From contig JAHDCO010000028.1 in the NCBI GenBank assembly GCA_020629835.1, positions 1 through 50,419 of the forward strand: a stretch of DNA of 50,419 nt, given 5' to 3'. A program made the position numbers and the translations under genes. The stretch's first letter is position 1, and every line of letters starts with the position of its first letter. This document shows positions 4,987 through 15,514 of the stretch, piece after piece. The notes under the pieces are model-generated. The model had not been told where the DNA came from and did no database searches. It saw only the letters and a program-made list of their open reading frames with translations. The DNA is from Granulosicoccaceae bacterium (GTDB lineage: Bacteria; Pseudomonadota; Gammaproteobacteria; Granulosicoccales; Granulosicoccaceae).

Positions 4987-6528
4987 TCAGGGGCTGTGGT
5001 AAGCGGCCGTGGGCAGTTTGCTTAAATCAAAACATGATTCCAGTGTATCGGCCAAACGTTCGATTTCAGCTTCGCACAAGGCGTTATAGTCGATGGGCTG
5101 AATCGCTTTTGCTGCGCCTGCCCAGCTAAGTAAAGCTTTCTGGGCTGATATGTTGTCGAACACACCGTGAAGGTAGGTTCCTCTGACCAGATCGTCGTGT
5201 GAGCAAGCACCATCATTTCGGGTCTGCCCATCAGTTTGAGTTAGTCGTGCAAAGGGTTCCAATGGCTCACCGGTGGGGGTGGTGACGCCCATATGTATTT
5301 CATAGCCTGTGACGAGCGCTTCATCGAGTGTGAGGTGCCCACTGACATTTTCTAAGACCTTTTCAGGCTCTAATAGGGTTTCCACATCAAGCACACCTAA
5401 ACCGTCTGTGGTTCCTGGCGTACTCTCTATGCCTTGCGGATCGGCAACGCGGTGCCCTAGCATCTGATAACCACCACAGATTCCGAGGACTTTGCCACCG
5501 TAACGTAAGTGCCGCAAAATGCTTTGACCCCATCCCACTCGATGCAGGTGTTCTAAATCGTGTCGTACGGATTTCGTGCCGGGTAAAATGATCAGATCAC
5601 ATGGGGGAATAGCGGACTCAGGACCCACGTAATTCAGATTAATCGCTGGATTGAGCCGTAACGTATCGAAGTCGGTGTGGTTGCTAATTCTGGGGAATAC
5701 CGGTACGCAAACATGCAACGCTGATTCAGCAAGTGGCTGCGCAGATTGAATACTGTCTTCAGCTTCCAAATGAAAATCGTGTAAATACGGTACGACCGCA
5801 AGTACCGGTTTTTGAGTGCGTTTTTCTAACCAGTCGATACCGGGTTGCAGTAACGATTGATCCCCCCGAAACCGGTTTATTACAAACCCACAGATTCGAT
5901 CCTGCTCTGATTGGCTTAGGCAAGCAAGCGTGCCAATTAAATGGGCAAACGAGCCTCCACGGTCAATATCGGTCACCAAAACAACGGGGCAGTTAACGGC
6001 CTCGGCAAACCCCATGTTTGCGATGTCACCCTCGCGTAAATTTATTTCTGCAGGGCTACCCGCACCTTCGACCAGAATATGCGCATAGTCTTTCTGCAAA
6101 CGCTGGTAAGAATCCAGGACGTATTGCATGGCTTCAGCCTTGTACTTATGAAACTGTCCCGCTTCAAAGTTACCCAGCGCCTTTCCTTGCACGATCACTT
6201 GCGCACCGGTGTCGCTGGAGGGCTTAATCAGAATGGGGTTCATGTGCACTGATGTGGGTACCCCACAGGCGACGGCTTGCACAGCTTGCGCGCGACCAAT
6301 TTCGCCTCCGTCTGCGGTGACGGCGCTGTTTAGTGCCATATTTTGCGGTTTAAACGGCGCGACCTGTAAACCGCGTCGTGCCAGCAAGCGACCAAGGCCA
6401 GCTACCAGCGTGCTTTTACCGGCGTCAGAGGTTGTACCTTGAACCATCAGGGTGGTATTCATGCCAGCAACGTACACCGATTGTTGCGCGCTTTCCTTGT
6501 TGACAGCGGCATAGCCTGTCGTCTCCAT
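4987..6528 (-). CDS. cobQ: cobyric acid synthase (adenosylcobyric acid-forming)
   Basis: Catalyses ATP- and glutamine-dependent amidation of four side chains of adenosylcobyrinic acid a,c-diamide. The N-terminal dethiobiotin-synthetase-like domain has the P-loop [10 protein letters not shown] (residues 31-40) and [10 protein letters not shown] (58-67). The C-terminal class I glutamine amidotransferase domain has the nucleophile Cys351 in [11 protein letters not shown] and His454 in YLHGVFD. At 513 residues it is slightly long for the family, and Met23 (6462), directly before the P-loop domain, is a credible alternative start. No other cobalamin gene is in the window and I see no cobalamin riboswitch upstream, so it appears to be a detached cobalamin gene. 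Confidence 0.93.
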
Positions 6529-6656: not shown

Positions 6657-7805
6657 CTAACCCGCAATGGATTCGAGTAACGAAGTTAAGTTGCTAGTGG
6701 TTAGTTCTATCGGGTTACCACCACAACTGGGGTCTTTCACCGCGGCTTCAGCCAATTTTTGGATATCGATATCGGTAACACCCATTGCGTTCAGCGTTTT
6801 TGGAATATCAAACTGATCATTGAAGCCATTGACGAACTCACAGAAGCCAGCGAACCCACCGCTTATACCCAAGTATCCGGCTGCTAAATCGAAGCGATCT
6901 TTTATCGCACTGGCATTAAACGCCAGGACGGCTGGCATGCACACCGCGTTGGTGGTGCCGTGGTGGGTATTGTGTACCGCGCCGATTGGATGGCTAAGAG
7001 CATGAATTGCCCCTAAGCCTTTTTGAAATGCTGTCGCACCCATAGCGGCAGCACTCATCATATTCGCTCGCGCTTCAATGTGATCAGGTTGCTGGTATGC
7101 AGTGGGCAGATTATCTATGACGAGGCGCATACCTTCCAGGGCAATGCCCTGGCTCATAGGGTGGTAGTGCGGGCTGGAGTAAGCTTCTACGCAGTGTGCG
7201 AACGCATCCAGTCCTGTTCCTGCGGTGATAAACGCAGGCATCCCGATCGTAAGTTCAGGATCACAGATCACCACCGCTGGTAGCATCTTTGGATGAAAGA
7301 TAATCTTCTTAACGTGTGTATTGGAATCGGTGATGACGCTGGCGCGACCCACTTCCGATCCGGTGCCTGCAGTGGTGGGCACGGCAACCACCGGAGCGAT
7401 GGCATCCGCGTTTGCACGAGTCCACCAATCACCGATATCTTCAAAGTCCCACAGCGGGCGCGTCTGACCTGCCATAAACGCAATGGCTTTACCTAAATCT
7501 AATGCAGAGCCACCGCCGAAGGCGACAACCCCATCAAAGCCACCATCAACATACGCTTTGACTCCGTTGTTTACGTTTGTGTCACTGGGGTTTGGGTCAA
7601 CGTCGCTGAAGGCATGTGCGCCCAATCCGGCTGCATCCAACAGTGACAGTGTGCGAACCGTGATGGGGTTGTCGGCCAGGCCTCGATCGGTAACAAGTAA
7701 TGGACGTTTAATCCCCGCAGCCTCGCAGCTTTCGGCGATTTCGCTAATTCGGCCCGCTCCAAATCGAACGGATGTTGGGTACGACCAGTTTCCAGTAAGT
7801 GACAT
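6657..7805 (-). CDS. iron-containing alcohol dehydrogenase
   Basis: Group III NAD-dependent alcohol dehydrogenase of 382 residues. The Rossmann-like domain carries GGGS (97-100) and AVPTTAGTGSE (141-151). Metal ligands fit the family pattern: Asp200 and His204 in TGLDAFAHCVEAY, His268 in GAIHALSHPIGA and His282 in HHGTTNA. It is the last gene of the minus-strand block and follows the aldehyde dehydrogenase by two bases, so the two are surely co-expressed. Context suggests it oxidises an alcohol group on the compound that the next enzyme takes as aldehyde. The substrate is inferred, not seen. Confidence 0.9.
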   Translation of the reverse strand: MSLTGNWSYPTSVRFGAGRISEIAESCEAAGIKRPLLVTDRGLADNPITVRTLSLLDAAGLGAHAFSDVDPNPSDTNVNNGVKAYVDGGFDGVVAFGGGSALDLGKAIAFMAGQTRPLWDFEDIGDWWTRANADAIAPVVAVPTTAGTGSEVGRASVITDSNTHVKKIIFHPKMLPAVVICDPELTIGMPAFITAGTGLDAFAHCVEAYSSPHYHPMSQGIALEGMRLVIDNLPTAYQQPDHIEARANMMSAAAMGATAFQKGLGAIHALSHPIGAVHNTHHGTTNAVCMPAVLAFNASAIKDRFDLAAGYLGISGGFAGFCEFVNGFNDQFDIPKTLNAMGVTDIDIQKLAEAAVKDPSCGGNPIELTTSNLTSLLESIAG

Positions 7806-7807
7806 GC

Positions 7808-9181
7808 TTAGTTCTTCTTAAAATGGTAGGACTTGGGACGGGTTACGTTATGAAAACCGATTTCAGACAAACTACCACCGCGACCAGTGTTTTTCACACC
7901 CGTCCAACATAACGAAGGGTCGAGGTAATCACAGCGGTTCATAAACACGGTGCCAGTCTCAATGTGGTTTCCCAGCGCGGCTGCTCGCTCGATGTCGGTG
8001 GTCCAAAGGGAGGCGGTTAGCCCAAATTCGCTGTCGTTCATCAGGGCCAGCGCTTCAGCGTCATTTTTTACCGGCATGATGCCCACCACAGGCCCAAAGG
8101 TTTCATCGCGCATAATGGCCATGGAATGATCGACGTTAACCAACAACTGTGGTGATAAATACGCGCCGCCATCGTCATTACTGAACGTGTTGATCAACGG
8201 TTTTGCGCCTGCCTGTACAGCGGCTTCAGTTTGTTCGCGTACCAACGCAGCAAAGCGCTTGTGTGCCATCGGCCCCAGCGTGGTATCCGCCTCTAGCGGG
8301 TTACCCAAGCGATAGCCATTAACAATGTCTGTCGCTTTTTGCACAAAGTCATCGAATACCGGTTCGGCCACATAAATGCGTTCAATACCGCAGCAGCTCT
8401 GACCTGAATTAAACATAGCGCCATCAATTAACGTATCAGCGGCGGCCTGAATATCGGCATCGTCCATCACGTACCCTGGGTCTTTGCCGCCAAGCTCTAA
8501 TCCCATGCCTGTGAAGGTACCGGCAGCGGATTTTTCCATTGATTGCCCACCGGGTACAGAGCCTGTAAAACTTAAAAAATCAAACGCATTTGCCGCTATC
8601 AGGGACGCTGTGGTGCCGTGATCTAAGCACAAATTTTGAAAGACACCGTCAGGTGCACCCGCCTCTAAAAATGCTTTTTCTAATCGCTCGCCAACCAGCG
8701 GGGTTTGAGACGCGTGTTTCAACACCACGGTATTGCCGGCCATTAAGGCCGGTGCTGCACTGTTTATCACCGTCATAAACGGGTAATTCCAAGGTGCCAC
8801 GATGAGCATGACGCCGTGCGGTACGCGGTGTATATGACGTTGAAATTGTTCGTTACTGCCTGTATCTATGGGCGCTAACGCGTCTTCTGCAATTGAAGCC
8901 ATGTATAACGCACGTTCTTCAAAGCCTGAGAATTCACCGCCGTAGCGGACGGGTCTTCCCATTTGCCACGCCAGTTCTGGCACGATTTCATCGTTCATCA
9001 TTCCGATGTTTGCAACCGCTCGACTGACGACGTCGATACGCTGCTCCAACGATTTCTCAGCCCAGGCTTTCTGCGCCTGTTGGGCTTTTTGAACGGCTTG
9101 TTCGGCGGCAGTTGTTGTCAGGTAATCACGCTCCGCAACCACGCTTCCGTCAACTGGGGAAATACACGTTAGCTTTGTCAT
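7808..9181 (-). CDS. NAD(P)-dependent aldehyde dehydrogenase
   Basis: A 457-residue enzyme of the aldehyde dehydrogenase superfamily, somewhat short for it. The cofactor-binding APWNYP motif contains the oxyanion Asn131; FTGSVPGG follows; general base Glu229 lies in LELGGK; nucleophile Cys263 or Cys264 lies in NSGQSCCG. The ATG at 9181 was chosen because it lies 13 bases after the ligase gene ends; the upstream start at 9220 would overlap that gene with non-homologous sequence. It oxidises an aldehyde to an acid, probably that produced by the adjacent alcohol dehydrogenase from a gamma-glutamylated intermediate. Whether NAD or NADP is used cannot be told. Confidence 0.9.
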   Translation of the reverse strand: MTKLTCISPVDGSVVAERDYLTTTAAEQAVQKAQQAQKAWAEKSLEQRIDVVSRAVANIGMMNDEIVPELAWQMGRPVRYGGEFSGFEERALYMASIAEDALAPIDTGSNEQFQRHIHRVPHGVMLIVAPWNYPFMTVINSAAPALMAGNTVVLKHASQTPLVGERLEKAFLEAGAPDGVFQNLCLDHGTTASLIAANAFDFLSFTGSVPGGQSMEKSAAGTFTGMGLELGGKDPGYVMDDADIQAAADTLIDGAMFNSGQSCCGIERIYVAEPVFDDFVQKATDIVNGYRLGNPLEADTTLGPMAHKRFAALVREQTEAAVQAGAKPLINTFSNDDGGAYLSPQLLVNVDHSMAIMRDETFGPVVGIMPVKNDAEALALMNDSEFGLTASLWTTDIERAAALGNHIETGTVFMNRCDYLDPSLCWTGVKNTGRGGSLSEIGFHNVTRPKSYHFKKN

Positions 9182-9194
9182 AGGGTTATCGTCA

Positions 9195-10559
9195 TCAGGC
9201 CCGTTCAAAACCGCGGGCAATTTCCCATTGGGTTACCGCACGATCAAATTGCTCTTGCTCCCACTCGGCGCAGCGCACGTAGTGATCAACCACGTCGTCA
9301 CCGAATGCTTTCCGCATAAAGGCAGACTGATTCAACGCGCTTGTGGCTTGGAGTAGGGTACTCGGAATCTCGGGCATACTGTCATCGTTGTACACATCAC
9401 CAGAGACTGGCGGCTGTAACTCTGCTTGCTCTTCAATGCCCTTTAAGCCTGCTGCCATCAGTGCCGCTTGCGCTAAATAGGGATTAATGTCGGCACCGGG
9501 TATACGGCACTCGATACGTATGCCCTTTGTACTTTCACCGCATAATCGAAATCCGGCGGTTCGGTTATCTACCGACCAAGCGATTTTAGTCGGGGCAAAT
9601 GAGCCTTTAACAAAGCGTTTGTAGGAATTGATATAGGGCGCTAAAAGTACAGTGAAGTCCGCTGCATACTTCAGTTGACCGGCCACAAAGTGTTGCATGG
9701 TGGTCGACATACCGTGTGCTGCCACTTCATCGTAGAATGCGTTTTCACCATCTCGTTGTAGCGATACATGCACGTGGCTGGCACTACCCACTCGGTCGCT
9801 ATGCCATTTGGATAAGAACGTTGCTGAGTGGCCTTGTTGCCAGGCAATTTCTTTGGTGGCGTGCTTTGCAATGGTGTGGTTGTCGGCACACGCTAAGGCT
9901 TCGTCGTAACGAATGTTTAATTCTTCTTGTCCCATCTCGGCTTCGCCCTTTGAATTTTCAACCGGAATGCCGGCCTCAAAGAGCGTATTGCGAAGCCGCC
10001 GCATGATCGGCTCTTCTTTCGTCGTTTGAAGGATGTGGTAATCCTCGTTGTAAGCGCTGATGGGTTCCAGATCCATGTAGTTCTGATTACGCAATTCATC
10101 CAACGGCGTTTTAAACAGAAAAAATTCCAACTCGGTGGCCATCATGGGTGTGAAGCCCATGTCCGCACAACGCCGAATTTGTTGTTTAAGGATTTGGCGA
10201 GGCGAATGTGAAATAGGTTGGTGAGTGTGATGGTCAATGATGTCGCACAGCACTAACGCGGTTCCCTCCAGCCACGGCATGGGGCGTAGTGTACTTAAAT
10301 CCGGCTTCATAACGTAGTCGCCATAGCCAGATTCCCAGCTGGTAGAGGCATAGCCATCTGGCGTCCCCATTTCTAAATCGGTTGCTAGCAAATAATTACA
10401 GCAATGGGTCTCTTCGTAACCGCTGTCCAGAAAATGTTGTACATGAAAGCGTTTACCCATGAGTCGACCTTGCATATCGACTAAGCACACCAGCACGGTA
10501 TCGATGCTGCCAGAGCTAGCAGCAGTTTTGAGGGCATCCAGAGTTAAGGTAGCGGTCAT
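9195..10559 (-). CDS. glutamine synthetase family protein, probable gamma-glutamyl-amine ligase
   Basis: A 454-residue glutamine-synthetase-fold ligase. Conserved elements are ATELEFF (metal-binding Glu143 and Glu145), EAEMGQEELN (from 206), SHVHVSL (His262/264), KGSFAPTKIAWSVDNRTAGFR (glutamate/ATP-site arginines) and RIECRIPGADINPYLA. It is embedded in a catabolic operon with aldehyde and alcohol dehydrogenases rather than nitrogen-regulation genes, as for PuuA and GlnA4-type enzymes that link glutamate to polyamines or ethanolamine. I therefore infer amine gamma-glutamylation rather than ammonia assimilation. The gene is 193 bases downstream of dctP, with a hairpin between them. The amine is unknown. 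Confidence 0.85.
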   Translation of the reverse strand: MTATLTLDALKTAASSGSIDTVLVCLVDMQGRLMGKRFHVQHFLDSGYEETHCCNYLLATDLEMGTPDGYASTSWESGYGDYVMKPDLSTLRPMPWLEGTALVLCDIIDHHTHQPISHSPRQILKQQIRRCADMGFTPMMATELEFFLFKTPLDELRNQNYMDLEPISAYNEDYHILQTTKEEPIMRRLRNTLFEAGIPVENSKGEAEMGQEELNIRYDEALACADNHTIAKHATKEIAWQQGHSATFLSKWHSDRVGSASHVHVSLQRDGENAFYDEVAAHGMSTTMQHFVAGQLKYAADFTVLLAPYINSYKRFVKGSFAPTKIAWSVDNRTAGFRLCGESTKGIRIECRIPGADINPYLAQAALMAAGLKGIEEQAELQPPVSGDVYNDDSMPEIPSTLLQATSALNQSAFMRKAFGDDVVDHYVRCAEWEQEQFDRAVTQWEIARGFERA

Positions 10560-10634
10560 GGTGTCTGTGCGCAGTAGGCGTAAGTGAAATTAGTGGTGAT
10601 GAGCTATTCAAAATTGAGTAAATATAACGAGTCA

Positions 10635-10658
10635 GAGAGCCTCTAAGATGAGGCTCTC
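10635..10658 (-). terminator. hairpin between TRAP binding-protein gene and ligase gene
   Basis: A perfect nine-base stem (GAGAGCCTC with GAGGCTCTC) and a six-base loop lie about 95 bases downstream of the dctP stop and 76 bases before the ligase start. There is no uninterrupted T run after it on the minus strand, so it may be a partial terminator or an mRNA-end stabiliser that lets the transport genes be expressed at a different level from the enzymes. Confidence 0.45.
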
Positions 10659-10752
10659 CTTAGTCACAGCAACAGGTGACCAAACAAGCAGTCGTCACTT
10701 GGTTATTTGGTCGCTTGTCGAGCGATTAAACGCATCGGGGATTGTGTCACCA

Positions 10753-11790
10753 TTATCCGTAACGATAAGGCCGTCCTGCCTTTTGCATATCATCATTGTA
10801 CTTACGGAAAATATCGACCACCTGTTTCTTTGTGTCAGATTCTGCGGCAATTTCATCCCAGAATTTCACCGCAGCGTTTTCAACCTGCGCCCATTCATCA
10901 TCAGGAATGGTGGTGAGTTGCATTTTCGTGCCATTAACTCGAAGGTCCGCTTCGCCACCCCAGTACCACCACTGACGATAATAATGGCTTTGTTCCATGC
11001 ATACGGTCAGAAGCGTCTTAAGGTGATCGGGAAGCTCTTCCCAGCGTTCCATATTGGCGAAGAAGTGGCCAATCCATGCACCCGATATGTTGTTGGTTAA
11101 GAAGTAGTTGGTTACATCAGCCCAACCGACCGTGTAGTCCTCAGTAATACCTGACCAGGCAATACCGTCGAGTTCGCCGGTTTGCATAGCCACTTCGATG
11201 TCTTCCCACGGCAGCGTCACCGGAATAACTCCGAACTGAGATAAAAATCGACCTGCGGTTGGGAATGTGAAGACTTTCTTTCCTTTCAAATCCTCTAAAG
11301 AATTGATGGGGTCTTTTGTGGCGAAGTGACATGGATCCCACGCACCGGCGGAGATGTGCTTTACACCCACTTTTGAATATTCGGCGTCCCAAATTTCGTT
11401 CAAGCCGTATTGATTGAACAGAACGGGCACGTCGAGTGAGTAGCGACTGCCAAACGGGAAGTAGCCACCGAACACCGTGACTTCAGTCGGGGATGCCATG
11501 GAATCATCATCTGATTGCACCGCATCGATGGTGCCGCGTTGCATGGCTTGAAAAAGCTCACCCGTTGGGACCAATTGATCAGCGAAGAACAGCTCAATCT
11601 CCATTTCATCGCCTGCGATGGCGTTGAATTTGTCGATAGCTGGCTTAATGACATGTTCAGCCAGTGACGAACCAGCGTAGGTTTGCAGCCGCCATTTAAT
11701 CTTTGATTGAGCAATGGCAGGTGCACCGGCTAGGGTGGCAGCAGGTACAGCAGCAGCTGCACCCTTAATAAACTTACGGCGTGTACTCAT
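10753..11790 (-). CDS. dctP: TRAP transporter solute-binding protein, Tat-exported
   Basis: Periplasmic DctP-type receptor of 345 residues, preceded by AAGGAGT at good spacing. The N-terminus has a twin-arginine signal (STRRKFIKGA, residues 2-11), a hydrophobic alanine-rich stretch and a cleavage site near AIAQ. The body has the TRAP receptor pattern of a ligand-contacting arginine region (FPTAGRFLSQFG) and YGLNEIWDAEYSKVGV. Tat-exported DctP proteins of this subgroup often bind 2-oxo acids or other carboxylates and dimerise, but the ligand here could be an amine-derived acid. It is downstream of dctQ and dctM, with a 61-base gap. Together they form a secondary transporter driven by a sodium gradient. 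Confidence 0.92.
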   Translation of the reverse strand: MSTRRKFIKGAAAAVPAATLAGAPAIAQSKIKWRLQTYAGSSLAEHVIKPAIDKFNAIAGDEMEIELFFADQLVPTGELFQAMQRGTIDAVQSDDDSMASPTEVTVFGGYFPFGSRYSLDVPVLFNQYGLNEIWDAEYSKVGVKHISAGAWDPCHFATKDPINSLEDLKGKKVFTFPTAGRFLSQFGVIPVTLPWEDIEVAMQTGELDGIAWSGITEDYTVGWADVTNYFLTNNISGAWIGHFFANMERWEELPDHLKTLLTVCMEQSHYYRQWWYWGGEADLRVNGTKMQLTTIPDDEWAQVENAAVKFWDEIAAESDTKKQVVDIFRKYNDDMQKAGRPYRYG

Positions 11791-11851
11791 AGTTACTGAC
11801 TCCTTAAGTTAGAAAAATACTCCACTTGCACTTCAACACGATTTGCAACGA

Positions 11852-13177
11852 TTAGTTGCCATACACGGTTTGAGGTAACCACAAGGCGATCTGTGGAAAC
11901 ACCATAACCAGAACTAGCGCAAAGACCATAACCAGGACAAACGGCACGATAGAGCGGTAAATATCCCCTAACGTAATACCCGGTGGTGACATTGCGCGCA
12001 TCAAAAACAGGTTGTATCCAAACGGCGGTGTCATGTAAGCAACCTGTGTGGTGATGGTATAGAGAACGCCATACCAAATTAAATCAAAGCCCAATGCACC
12101 CACCAGTGGTATGTAAAGCGGCGCCACAATAACCAACATAGCGGTGTCATCCAGGAAGGTGCCCATTAAGATAAAGCTGAGCTGCATTAGGATCAGAATC
12201 ATCCAGGGGCTCAAGCCTAAACGTTCGGTGAATAAACTTTCGATCGCTTTGACAGCCCCCAGGCCATCGAACACAGCGCCAAATGCCAGGGCGGCAAGAA
12301 TGATCCACATAAACATGCAGGTGATGCCCAGTGTGTTCCTGACCGATGTCTCGAATACGGTCCAGGTCATTCGGCGTTTAAGGCAGGCTGCGAGGAATGC
12401 GGCGATAGCACCAATCGCTGAACTTTCTACCAATGATGTCCAACCGTTGATAAACGGCACCATCATTGAAAAGAAAATTCCTAGTGGTAGTAAGCCTGAG
12501 ACCAGCAGCTTATATTTTTCAGCTGCGGGCATATCGCGTTCTTCAGGTGGCAACGCAGGGCCTAAGCTGGGGTTAAGCTTGCAGCGTAAAGCGATATACA
12601 CAATAAACAGTGTGGCCATCATCAGGCCAGGTACCACCCCAGCCAACCAGAGTTGGCCAACCGGCTGGCGTGCAATCATGGCGTACAGTACCAACACCAC
12701 AGAGGGCGGAACCAATATGCCCAGGGAACTGCCTGCTTGTACTACCCCCGTGACCATTCGTTTGTCATAACCACGCCTGAGTAGTTCCGGTAACGCGATA
12801 GTGGCACCTATCGCCATGCCGGCCACGGATAAACCGTTCATGGCCGACACCAGCACCATTAAGCCAATGGTGCCGATGGCAAGCCCGCCGCGTATACCGC
12901 CCATCCACACATGGAACATCCGATACAAGTCATCAGCAATACGACTCTCTGACAACACGTAACCCATAAACACAAACATAGGCACGGTCAACAGTGGGTA
13001 CCAGCGCATGAGTTTGATGGCCTGTGAGAAAGCTACATCAAACCCACCACGTTCACCCCACAGTACTAATGCGGCGATTACTGCAACAAACCCAATCGCT
13101 CCGAAGACGCGCTGCCCTGAAAACAGTAGCAACATCATGGACGAGAACATCAGCAAGGCGATGAGTTCGTAAGACAT
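11852..13177 (-). CDS. dctM: TRAP transporter large permease
   Basis: Inner-membrane DctM subunit of 441 residues with about 12 hydrophobic segments and the typical regions LTVPMFVFMGYVLSESRIADDLY, GLSVAGMAIGATIALPE and GSSLGILVPPSVVLVLYA. It forms the substrate-translocating channel. Its ATG shares one base with the dctQ stop codon (TGATG), so the two are translationally coupled. The C-terminal part includes TPPFGYNLFLMRA, a well-conserved TRAP large-subunit stretch. Length is normal for the family. Confidence 0.93.
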   Translation of the reverse strand: MSYELIALLMFSSMMLLLFSGQRVFGAIGFVAVIAALVLWGERGGFDVAFSQAIKLMRWYPLLTVPMFVFMGYVLSESRIADDLYRMFHVWMGGIRGGLAIGTIGLMVLVSAMNGLSVAGMAIGATIALPELLRRGYDKRMVTGVVQAGSSLGILVPPSVVLVLYAMIARQPVGQLWLAGVVPGLMMATLFIVYIALRCKLNPSLGPALPPEERDMPAAEKYKLLVSGLLPLGIFFSMMVPFINGWTSLVESSAIGAIAAFLAACLKRRMTWTVFETSVRNTLGITCMFMWIILAALAFGAVFDGLGAVKAIESLFTERLGLSPWMILILMQLSFILMGTFLDDTAMLVIVAPLYIPLVGALGFDLIWYGVLYTITTQVAYMTPPFGYNLFLMRAMSPPGITLGDIYRSIVPFVLVMVFALVLVMVFPQIALWLPQTVYGN

Positions 13178-13761
13178 CAGATAACCTCACCACGGATACG
13201 CAACACGTCTTTGAATAATTCTGAAAGGGTTTGCAAAATCATCAGGATAATTGCGATACACAATACGGCCTTTATCGGCCAAAGGTAGGGTCGCCAAATT
13301 GTACGGCTACGCTCCATGGTGCCGAGTACGTCGTCTTGGGTGCCACTCAAGAACGCACCAAAAAGTTTGGTAAAAAATTCAAATGGTGCGGAGCCGAAGT
13401 ACCCTAAAGAATAAGCCGTGGAACCCACGGCGCCCCACAGCAGCACGCACAGGTAGATAAGTAAACAGAACACTGTGACAGCGTCTGTCCAGGCTTTTCG
13501 TTTGACGGACCAGTTGTCGTAAAACAAATCCATCCGCACATGGGAGCCCAGTTGAATGGCGTAGGGCCCACCCAGGAAAACATACGCGATCATCGCGTAT
13601 TGCGCACCTTCCAGCGTCCACAGTGATGGTGTGTCCATCGATTTACTGACGATAGACCAAAGAAGAATTCCCATTAAAACAAAGATACCGAACATCACTA
13701 CACGACCAATGGCTTTATTGATCGCATCAACCACGATGATGTACGTTCTTAAAATACTCAT
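13177..13761 (-). CDS. dctQ: TRAP transporter small permease
   Basis: A 194-residue DctQ-type subunit with four predicted helices (about residues 18-38, 52-72, 94-116 and 162-182). It carries the family pattern of an aromatic-rich second helix followed by LGSHVRMDLFYD. It is slightly long because of a loop before the last helix. It overlaps the amidohydrolase-like gene upstream by four bases and dctM by one, so all three are in one transcript. Confidence 0.9.
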   Translation of the reverse strand: MSILRTYIIVVDAINKAIGRVVMFGIFVLMGILLWSIVSKSMDTPSLWTLEGAQYAMIAYVFLGGPYAIQLGSHVRMDLFYDNWSVKRKAWTDAVTVFCLLIYLCVLLWGAVGSTAYSLGYFGSAPFEFFTKLFGAFLSGTQDDVLGTMERSRTIWRPYLWPIKAVLCIAIILMILQTLSELFKDVLRIRGEVI

Positions 13762-14522
13762 AGCGGAACCTGGCGCTGTGAGGTTACCGGGAGTTTCAGG
13801 ACGTTAAGTAGCATCAACGCTTCAGTGAGCCAGCTGGCCAGTTGCATAGCCATACTTTCCTGTTGTGAGGCGGTTTCAATCAAATCGCTTCGTACTTCCA
13901 ACATGACATTTAAATAGTTATTGGGCAGGGCGTGTTCACGTAACGTGTGAGTTACACCGTCTGCGGGCCCGTAAGGCTGGTTTCTATCCGCCTGTAGGTT
14001 AGTTACGCAGCCGAGAAGTGCATCCGCTAAGCGGGTATCTGTGTCATGTAAAATTCCAAGCTCGGTGGTACGGGTAACGCCGTTATACACCGGTGTAAAG
14101 GAATGCACTGTGACGATTACAGGCTCTTGTTTGCTAGCTGTAAGGATGTTGCGCAGACACGTACGGAAGGGTTCGTAAAATGTATTTGCGCGCTCTTCTC
14201 GTTGCTGTGTGCTCAGATCAACATTGCCCGGGATGGTGTGCGATTCACTGTGAGAGGGAATGGCGCTCTGTGCTTCGGGCGGGCGGTTGCAGTCGTACAG
14301 TAGTCGTGATGCGTTGCTGTGCACGAGCGGACTATCGAACTTTCTGGCTAAGAGTTTAGCAACAGAGAGTGCGCCCGGATCCCACGCAATGTGGCTTTGG
14401 CGTAAAGGTGCATCCAGGCCCAAAAAGTTATAGTGCTCTGGCATGTAGGCGCTAGCGTGTTCACACACCAGAACAACCGGGTGTTGCCCGTTAGCGTTGT
14501 ATACGCCTGCCATCTCACTCAT
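13758..14522 (-). CDS. N-formylglutamate amidohydrolase family protein
   Basis: A 254-residue member of the FGase family, with the N-terminal VVLVCEHASAYMPEHY and IAWDPGALSVAKLLA blocks and the VTVHSFTPVYNG motif; the acids and histidines in these blocks are the likely metal site. Known members hydrolyse N-formyl-L-glutamate in histidine degradation, but no hut genes are present. It is the first gene of the TRAP operon, overlapping dctQ by ATGA, and the block also contains a gamma-glutamyl ligase-like enzyme. I infer that it hydrolyses an amide of glutamate or the imported compound itself. The ATG at 14513 is an alternative start. Confidence 0.85.
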   Translation of the reverse strand: MSEMAGVYNANGQHPVVLVCEHASAYMPEHYNFLGLDAPLRQSHIAWDPGALSVAKLLARKFDSPLVHSNASRLLYDCNRPPEAQSAIPSHSESHTIPGNVDLSTQQREERANTFYEPFRTCLRNILTASKQEPVIVTVHSFTPVYNGVTRTTELGILHDTDTRLADALLGCVTNLQADRNQPYGPADGVTHTLREHALPNNYLNVMLEVRSDLIETASQQESMAMQLASWLTEALMLLNVLKLPVTSQRQVPL

Positions 14523-14638
14523 GTGCCGACCATAGAGTTACTTAACCCCGCATCGTCAATGATGTAAAGTGTTATTCAGAAGAGCACTCGCTGTCAACTA
14601 TTATTCAAAACGCACGATTTAAGTGCAGAGGCTGCCAG

Positions 14639-15514
14639 ATGAGCAAAACCGGACCGAAAGTCACTATTGCAGAGAAGCTGCGCGAGCAGAGTGACGTACT
14701 GACCCGTTCAGAACGCCAACTCAGCGATGTCATTCTTCTTAATTACCCCGTTTCGGGGTTGGGTTCGATTACGGCATTAGCAGAAGCGGCTGAGGTATCC
14801 ACACCAACGGTTGCGCGACTGGTTCAGAAGTTGGGTTTCTCGGGTTTTCCAAGTTTCCAACAAGCGCTGCGTGAAGAGTTGGATGAGGCCATATCCAGCC
14901 CGCTGGCTAAACGTGAGCGATGGGTCAACGATGCCCCTGACGAGCACATCTTGAATCGTTTTACAAAAGCTGTAATAGACAATATCAGCCAGTCTTTGGA
15001 TGAAGTAGACCCAAAGGTGTTCAAGCGTGCTTGTGATCTTATTGCTGATCCCAAACGGCGGGTGTTTGTCGTTGGAGGGCGCATCACGCGAACACTGGCA
15101 GACTATTTCTTTTTGCACCTGCAAGTGGTCAGGGATCAGGTAACGCATGTGGCATCGAATTCAAATTCCTGGGCGCATTATCTGCTCGACACGCGCAAAA
15201 ATGATGTCGTGGTGATATTTGATATTCGCCGATACGAGAATTCAACCTTACGGTTGGCGGAAGCCGCTCGAGAGCGTAACGCCAAAATTATATTGTTTAC
15301 TGATCAATGGTCGTCACCGGTTGATGCTATTGCGGACATTACGTTTAAAAATCGTATTTCTGCACCCAGCGCGTGGGATTCGAATGTGTCGTCCATGTTG
15401 CTTGCCGAAATTGTTATAGCGGAAGTACAGGAGCGTAATTGGAAAACTACGCGTAAGCGGATGGAGACGCTTGAAGCGATGTTTGATAAGAGTCGGGTGT
15501 TTCGGAAGTTCTAG
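14639..15514 (+). CDS. MurR/RpiR family transcriptional regulator
   Basis: A 291-residue regulator with an N-terminal RpiR helix-turn-helix (about residues 10-85; ALAEAAEVSTPTVARLVQKLGFSGF is the recognition part) and a C-terminal SIS sugar-isomerase-like domain (about 125-250, starting with RRVFVVGGRITRTLA). It is divergent from the amidohydrolase-TRAP operon across 116 bases and is preceded by GAGG. RpiR proteins sense a phosphorylated sugar or similar small metabolite through the SIS domain. It is the natural candidate to control the operon. Copies of TTATTCA at 14572 and 14601 in the shared promoter region could be part of its site. Confidence 0.9.
   Translation: MSKTGPKVTIAEKLREQSDVLTRSERQLSDVILLNYPVSGLGSITALAEAAEVSTPTVARLVQKLGFSGFPSFQQALREELDEAISSPLAKRERWVNDAPDEHILNRFTKAVIDNISQSLDEVDPKVFKRACDLIADPKRRVFVVGGRITRTLADYFFLHLQVVRDQVTHVASNSNSWAHYLLDTRKNDVVVIFDIRRYENSTLRLAEAARERNAKIILFTDQWSSPVDAIADITFKNRISAPSAWDSNVSSMLLAEIVIAEVQERNWKTTRKRMETLEAMFDKSRVFRKF

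Follow-up and report, generated by a model that had tools for sequence, protein, structure and literature searches.

The closest described counterpart of the system studied here is an operon of Phaeobacter sp. MED193, in which the gene of an RpiR-type regulator comes first and is followed by those of GGAH (γ-glutamylglycine amidohydrolase), the importer proteins EtoV, EtoW and EtoX, ETAGA (ethanolamine γ-glutamylase), the aldehyde dehydrogenase GAADDH and the alcohol dehydrogenase GETADH (PMC10132767). According to the same paper, five of the operon proteins go up on phosphorylethanolamine, EtoX binds ethanolamine with a dissociation constant of 7.9 uM, and closely related genes of Chromohalobacter salexigens and Agrobacterium tumefaciens C58 form an ethanolamine pathway whose function was "demonstrated", for which Vetting 2015 is cited (PMC10132767). 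For the GlnA4 pathway of Streptomyces coelicolor (SCO1611-SCO1615), an enzyme of the formylglutamate amidohydrolase family has been proposed for the last step; the passages describing this pathway mention no tripartite ATP-independent periplasmic (TRAP) importer (PMC6529630). Here we analyse a stretch of 50,419 nucleotides from Granulosicoccaceae bacterium (contig JAHDCO010000028.1 of assembly GCA_020629835.1, positions 1 to 50,419; hereafter the window), whose minus strand carries an operon at positions 6657-14522. Very probably, its genes serve the use of ethanolamine by way of γ-glutamylation.

The window and Phaeobacter MED193 share the same eight gene kinds in the same order with RpiR first, in different hosts, a likeness taken from the published gene order. 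The S. coelicolor pathway, likened to the window by its description, has the same proposed chemistry. In the PuuA/PuuD pathway of Escherichia coli, putrescine is likewise glutamylated, oxidised and finally released by hydrolysis; it differs from the window in its substrate and its oxidation enzymes, and its hydrolase is class-I amidotransferase-like.

A proposed ethanolamine pathway at the locus

The operon consists of seven open reading frames (ORFs), all of them open on translation. They are transcribed in the order FGase-family hydrolase, DctQ, DctM, DctP, glutamine-synthetase-like ligase, aldehyde dehydrogenase and iron alcohol dehydrogenase, and the gaps between them are short, the largest being the 193 bases between DctP and the ligase. 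Pfam backs all seven as well as the divergent RpiR-type gene on the plus strand (14639-15514; PF01418 (HTH_6) and PF01380 (SIS)). The gene content given in a preliminary description of this DNA agrees with these ORFs and Pfam matches, and its limits for the block are the exact outer ORF ends.

We propose the following pathway. The TRAP system EtoVWX, made up of the small permease DctQ (EtoV; 13177-13761; PF04290), the large permease DctM (EtoW; 11852-13177; PF06808) and the solute-binding protein DctP (EtoX; 10753-11790), a predicted ethanolamine binder, would import ethanolamine. The ligase (9195-10559; PF00120 (Gln-synt_C), 343 bits), a probable ethanolamine γ-glutamylase, would then use ATP to join ethanolamine and glutamate into γ-glutamylethanolamide. 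The hydroxyl end of this compound would be oxidised by the iron alcohol dehydrogenase (6657-7805; PF00465 (Fe-ADH), 169 bits, and PF25137), a probable γ-glutamylethanolamide dehydrogenase, giving γ-glutamylacetaldehyde. The aldehyde dehydrogenase (7808-9220; PF00171 (Aldedh), 384 bits), probably a γ-glutamylacetaldehyde dehydrogenase, would convert this to γ-glutamylglycine, and the FGase-family hydrolase (13758-14522; PF05013, 115 bits), a probable GGAH, would split γ-glutamylglycine into glutamate and glycine. Control of the operon probably lies with the RpiR protein. For the window we infer all the catalytic steps, the substrate and the role of the regulator.

The ORF listed for the aldehyde dehydrogenase begins at a TTG that still lies within the ligase gene. 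Translation more likely starts 13 codons further in, at an ATG of the same frame (MTKLTC...). The protein falls under the cut-off of all 25 NCBIfam models shown, of 43 matched.

The preliminary description had proposed a γ-glutamylation pathway for an imported amine or amino alcohol, with an FGase-type enzyme in place of PuuD as a new feature. The pathway, the import of an amino alcohol and the FGase-type last step hold up by homology; the novelty does not, as the same operon order is described in Phaeobacter (PMC10132767) and an FGase-family step is proposed in the Streptomyces paper (PMC6529630). This pathway is already known, and an FGase-type last step was published in 2019 or earlier.

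Gene order in relatives

With the ligase alone as query, we took the best 80 of 232 stretches encoding a relative, calling a gene present at 35% identity or more and a set full when all seven genes stood in the same order and orientation (loci are numbered with L, genomes with G). The full set is found in 53 of the 80 loci, and in 47 of the 58 with enough flanking DNA. Because 53 of 80 loci fetched by the ligase alone carry the whole set in order, the arrangement is more than chance. The divergent RpiR gene accompanies 51 of the 53 complete loci, and an FGase relative lies near the ligase in 70 of the 80. What is established directly is that the genes exist, that their order is conserved and that importer and ligase closely resemble proteins of solved structure. 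The loci nearest to the window's ligase are labelled uncultured Granulosicoccaceae, a gammaproteobacterial family.

The full order is departed from in 11 of the 58 well-covered loci. Four of these have no aldehyde dehydrogenase, one of the four also having no alcohol dehydrogenase; among the others, one is without the FGase, one without the alcohol dehydrogenase and three without the TRAP genes. In Litoreibacter (L060, L063 and L065), the FGase, the ligase and both dehydrogenases are present and the TRAP genes absent; at L060, a DeoR-type regulator stands ahead of the FGase.

Substrate, enzymes and alternatives

The binding protein DctP narrows the substrate. It aligns without a gap across 318 residues to the solved chains 4uab and 4xf5 at 625 bits, and the next PDB match reaches 63 bits. 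The second of these structures, 4xf5, is presumably the same protein with 2-amino-1-propanol. The first, 4UAB, is Csal_0678 of C. salexigens with bound ethanolamine (PMC12410723) and represents the closest solved homologue of the window's DctP. Csal_0678 is without the arginine by which other TRAP binding proteins hold a carboxylate (PMC4646407). In agreement with this remark, the position of the carboxylate-clamping arginine is Phe174 in the window's DctP; it is Arg in all six aligned paralogues of the same genome, ten paralogue loci having been tried, of which four, including the two best PF03480 scorers, gave no alignment row. Among 72 relatives, position 174 is Phe in 52, Tyr in 20 and never Arg, and Glu217 is invariant. 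The published residue that holds ethanolamine is Glu220 (PMC12410723); in the alignment, the window and 69 of 71 homologues have Thr at chain position 220. Glu217 probably corresponds to the published Glu220 with the numbering shifted by three. Homology supports ethanolamine, or possibly a close relative, as the imported amino alcohol.

Across the related loci, DctP position 92 is Q in 51 and H in 20, position 151 is W in 51 and Q in 20, and position 174 divides into Phe and Tyr as given above. These counts, each taken for one position by itself, hint at two binding-protein types in the family that might differ in ligand. These two types, together with the 2-amino-1-propanol presumed in 4xf5, could mean that the main substrate is a related small amino alcohol (2-amino-1-propanol, 1-amino-2-propanol or serinol) passing through the same chemistry. 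We consider this improbable, since the window's DctP sides with the majority at each of the three positions and matches Csal_0678 so closely, and since a secondary alcohol would be oxidised to a ketone, which leaves no role for the aldehyde dehydrogenase. Two further alternatives, both very improbable in our estimate, concern the enzymes. The ligase could be an ordinary glutamine synthetase, or else make γ-glutamylputrescine as PuuA does, given that it matches the curated models GlnA, glutamine synthetase type III and GGputSyn (NF045547, the PuuA model) at 254, 246 and 210 bits; all three scores, however, lie under the cut-offs of 429, 470 and 650. Several other glutamine synthetase family genes exist in the genome, the top one scoring 459 bits, so a higher-scoring glutamine synthetase gene lies elsewhere; moreover, the operon has no amine-oxidase-type gene, and the ligase is partnered by two dehydrogenases, one for an alcohol and one for an aldehyde. 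In the PDB, the ligase is matched best by 5dm3 (679 bits), which we take to be the ligase of C. salexigens, and 11zs (581 bits), and the other 36 PDB matches, mostly named glutamine synthetases, are all below 200 bits. In the alignment with the genome's 459-bit glutamine synthetase, a DGSS stretch stands opposite DGYA; the alignment is loose there and was not used as evidence.

The Pfam family name, FGase, would suggest that the hydrolase is an ordinary N-formylglutamate deformylase of histidine breakdown that stands here by chance. It nevertheless scores 14.5 bits against the HutG model TIGR02017, far from the cut-off of 278.75, as do the other operon FGases (13-25 bits in all five tested), whereas two HutG-type proteins of the same class reach 319 and 349 bits; to one of these, the window's hydrolase is 23% identical over 128 residues. 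The association of an FGase relative with the ligase in most loci also argues against a chance neighbour. HutH was not found in the window's genome, a search in which five of 14 control genomes matched, four over the cut-off, and which did not extend to HutU, HutI and HutF; the operon hydrolase is the sole PF05013 gene found there. Because the hydrolase fails TIGR02017 and is the only PF05013 gene found in a genome that shows no HutH, N-formylglutamate is an unlikely substrate. With the FGase from the Ruegeria pomeroyi operon it shares 51% identity, and its sole PDB match is 2odf (Atu2144; 248 bits). A survey of the class found PF05013 in 46 of 185 genomes. Twelve class loci (L114-L117, L119, L120, L124-L127, L129 and L130) have FGase relatives 31-38% identical to the window's, with no operon genes within the DNA examined; these appear to form a third group that fits clearly with neither the HutG nor the operon enzymes.

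Variation within the genus and neighbouring DNA

Several observations weigh against the ethanolamine pathway as we read it. The published accounts disagree on proof, in part by citing other works: set against the wording of PMC10132767 quoted above, the C. salexigens pathway was "predicted in an in silico approach" according to PMC6529630, and PMC9397018, which repeats the same steps, calls the pathway "proposed". The passages covered in the literature on the pathway show no assay of an FGase on γ-glutamylglycine. Among 29 class PF05013 loci fetched, the window's own excluded, only two have operon neighbours within 1.5 kb. The ligase stands without any other pathway gene in two of the 58 well-covered loci, and L079, with too little upstream DNA to be judged fully, is a third ligase-only locus. 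Among 23 other genomes of the window's genus, in which the ligase (E 1e-100 or better) is found in 21, in G194 and G204 in part only, the FGase was not detected in 14 of the 21 ligase-bearing genomes, ten of the 14 being at least 90% complete. Several loci and genomes are also without a close aldehyde dehydrogenase.

The ligases at L019, L028 and the partly covered L079 are close homologues (69-72%) with no other pathway genes nearby. The assembly that contains L019 also contains L042 with the whole operon, so that L019 represents a second ligase copy there.

The FGase is found in seven of the 23 genus genomes by protein search, and Pfam over its cut-off gives the same seven. Six of these FGases lie on the contig of the ligase and that of G197, which is 36% identical, on another; in G213, a stop falls inside the longer match. 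G196 has an FGase match under the cut-off and no ligase, and G215, G216 and G217 entered the Pfam scan for the FGase and not the ligase search. From the 14 genomes without a detected FGase, 11 ligase regions were fetched (L169-L179): eight have a DctP with Phe174 and Glu217, nine an aldehyde dehydrogenase and all 11 an alcohol dehydrogenase. TRAP genes are missing from L172 and L177, and the start of L175 is close to the end of a contig. In a ligase tree of 20 rows (19 genus genomes and the window, with G194 and G204 dropped), built by a quick method with five of 29 inner branches left open, the FGase state changes at least five times. The genus ligases fall in several separate places, and one well-supported group, with ten members of which eight have no detected FGase, is separate from the window's; the ligases of this group could have diverged in function.

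We give slightly less than even odds to the possibility that most members of the genus now rely on some non-FGase enzyme for the last step. In that case, the place of the FGase would have to be taken by an unrelated hydrolase acting on γ-glutamylglycine or by a γ-glutamyl peptidase of general function. The pattern might also stem from sequence that is missing, from FGases that have diverged strongly or from such a general peptidase. A Pfam scan of 30 ORFs neighbouring the ligase in nine of the 11 FGase-less regions found no replacement hydrolase; L177 contributed no ORF, and one ORF of L176 was examined apart from the 30. Six of the 30 match no family and may include a replacement. The sole candidate to recur, a protein with a nitrilase domain next to the cluster in L169, L175, L178 and L176, was rejected, as it is an ordinary NAD synthetase (829-837 bits, cut-off 473).

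Regarding the aldehyde dehydrogenase, L143, L145, L152 and L155 (in G214) have none between the ligase and the alcohol dehydrogenase. L152 retains perhaps a short scrap of it, and L155, in a genome of one contig, has only its N- and C-terminal ends beside the ligase. A search at 1e-80 found no aldehyde dehydrogenase in G201 (63% complete), G209 and G214, and five of seven further genomes have copies of at most 33% identity only. In G205, a copy is on another contig; as the ligase of this genome lies at a contig end, no conclusion can be drawn from it. The missing gene was first taken as a sign of a different pathway; G212 has a 69% identical copy on another contig. The clusters without FGase and without aldehyde dehydrogenase mean that neither of these steps is invariably linked to the ligase.

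Across positions 14490-14660 of the window, which take in the gap between the FGase and RpiR genes, no inverted repeat of at least 8 bases was found. A search for a shared RpiR operator gave none, as the 9-mers met most often in 52 gaps of this kind are absent from the window's top-ranking ones; the top 9-mer of the window, present in eight of the 52, falls where the RpiR coding sequence starts. A cobyric acid synthase gene (4987-6528) follows immediately downstream of the operon and has no evident part in the pathway.

EutB was not found in the window's 97% complete genome, and among 14 control genomes only E. coli matched; a B12-dependent route is therefore not evident in this genome, which also encodes a glycine decarboxylase for the glycine produced. 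The operon would be a route for ethanolamine that does without a B12-dependent lyase of the EutB type. In the sea, the ethanolamine of membrane lipids commonly serves as a source of nitrogen and carbon (PMC10132767). The window adds one more host of the pathway, probably outside the Roseobacter group, and leaves the picture unchanged; a new, testable question comes only from the patchy absence of the FGase within the genus.

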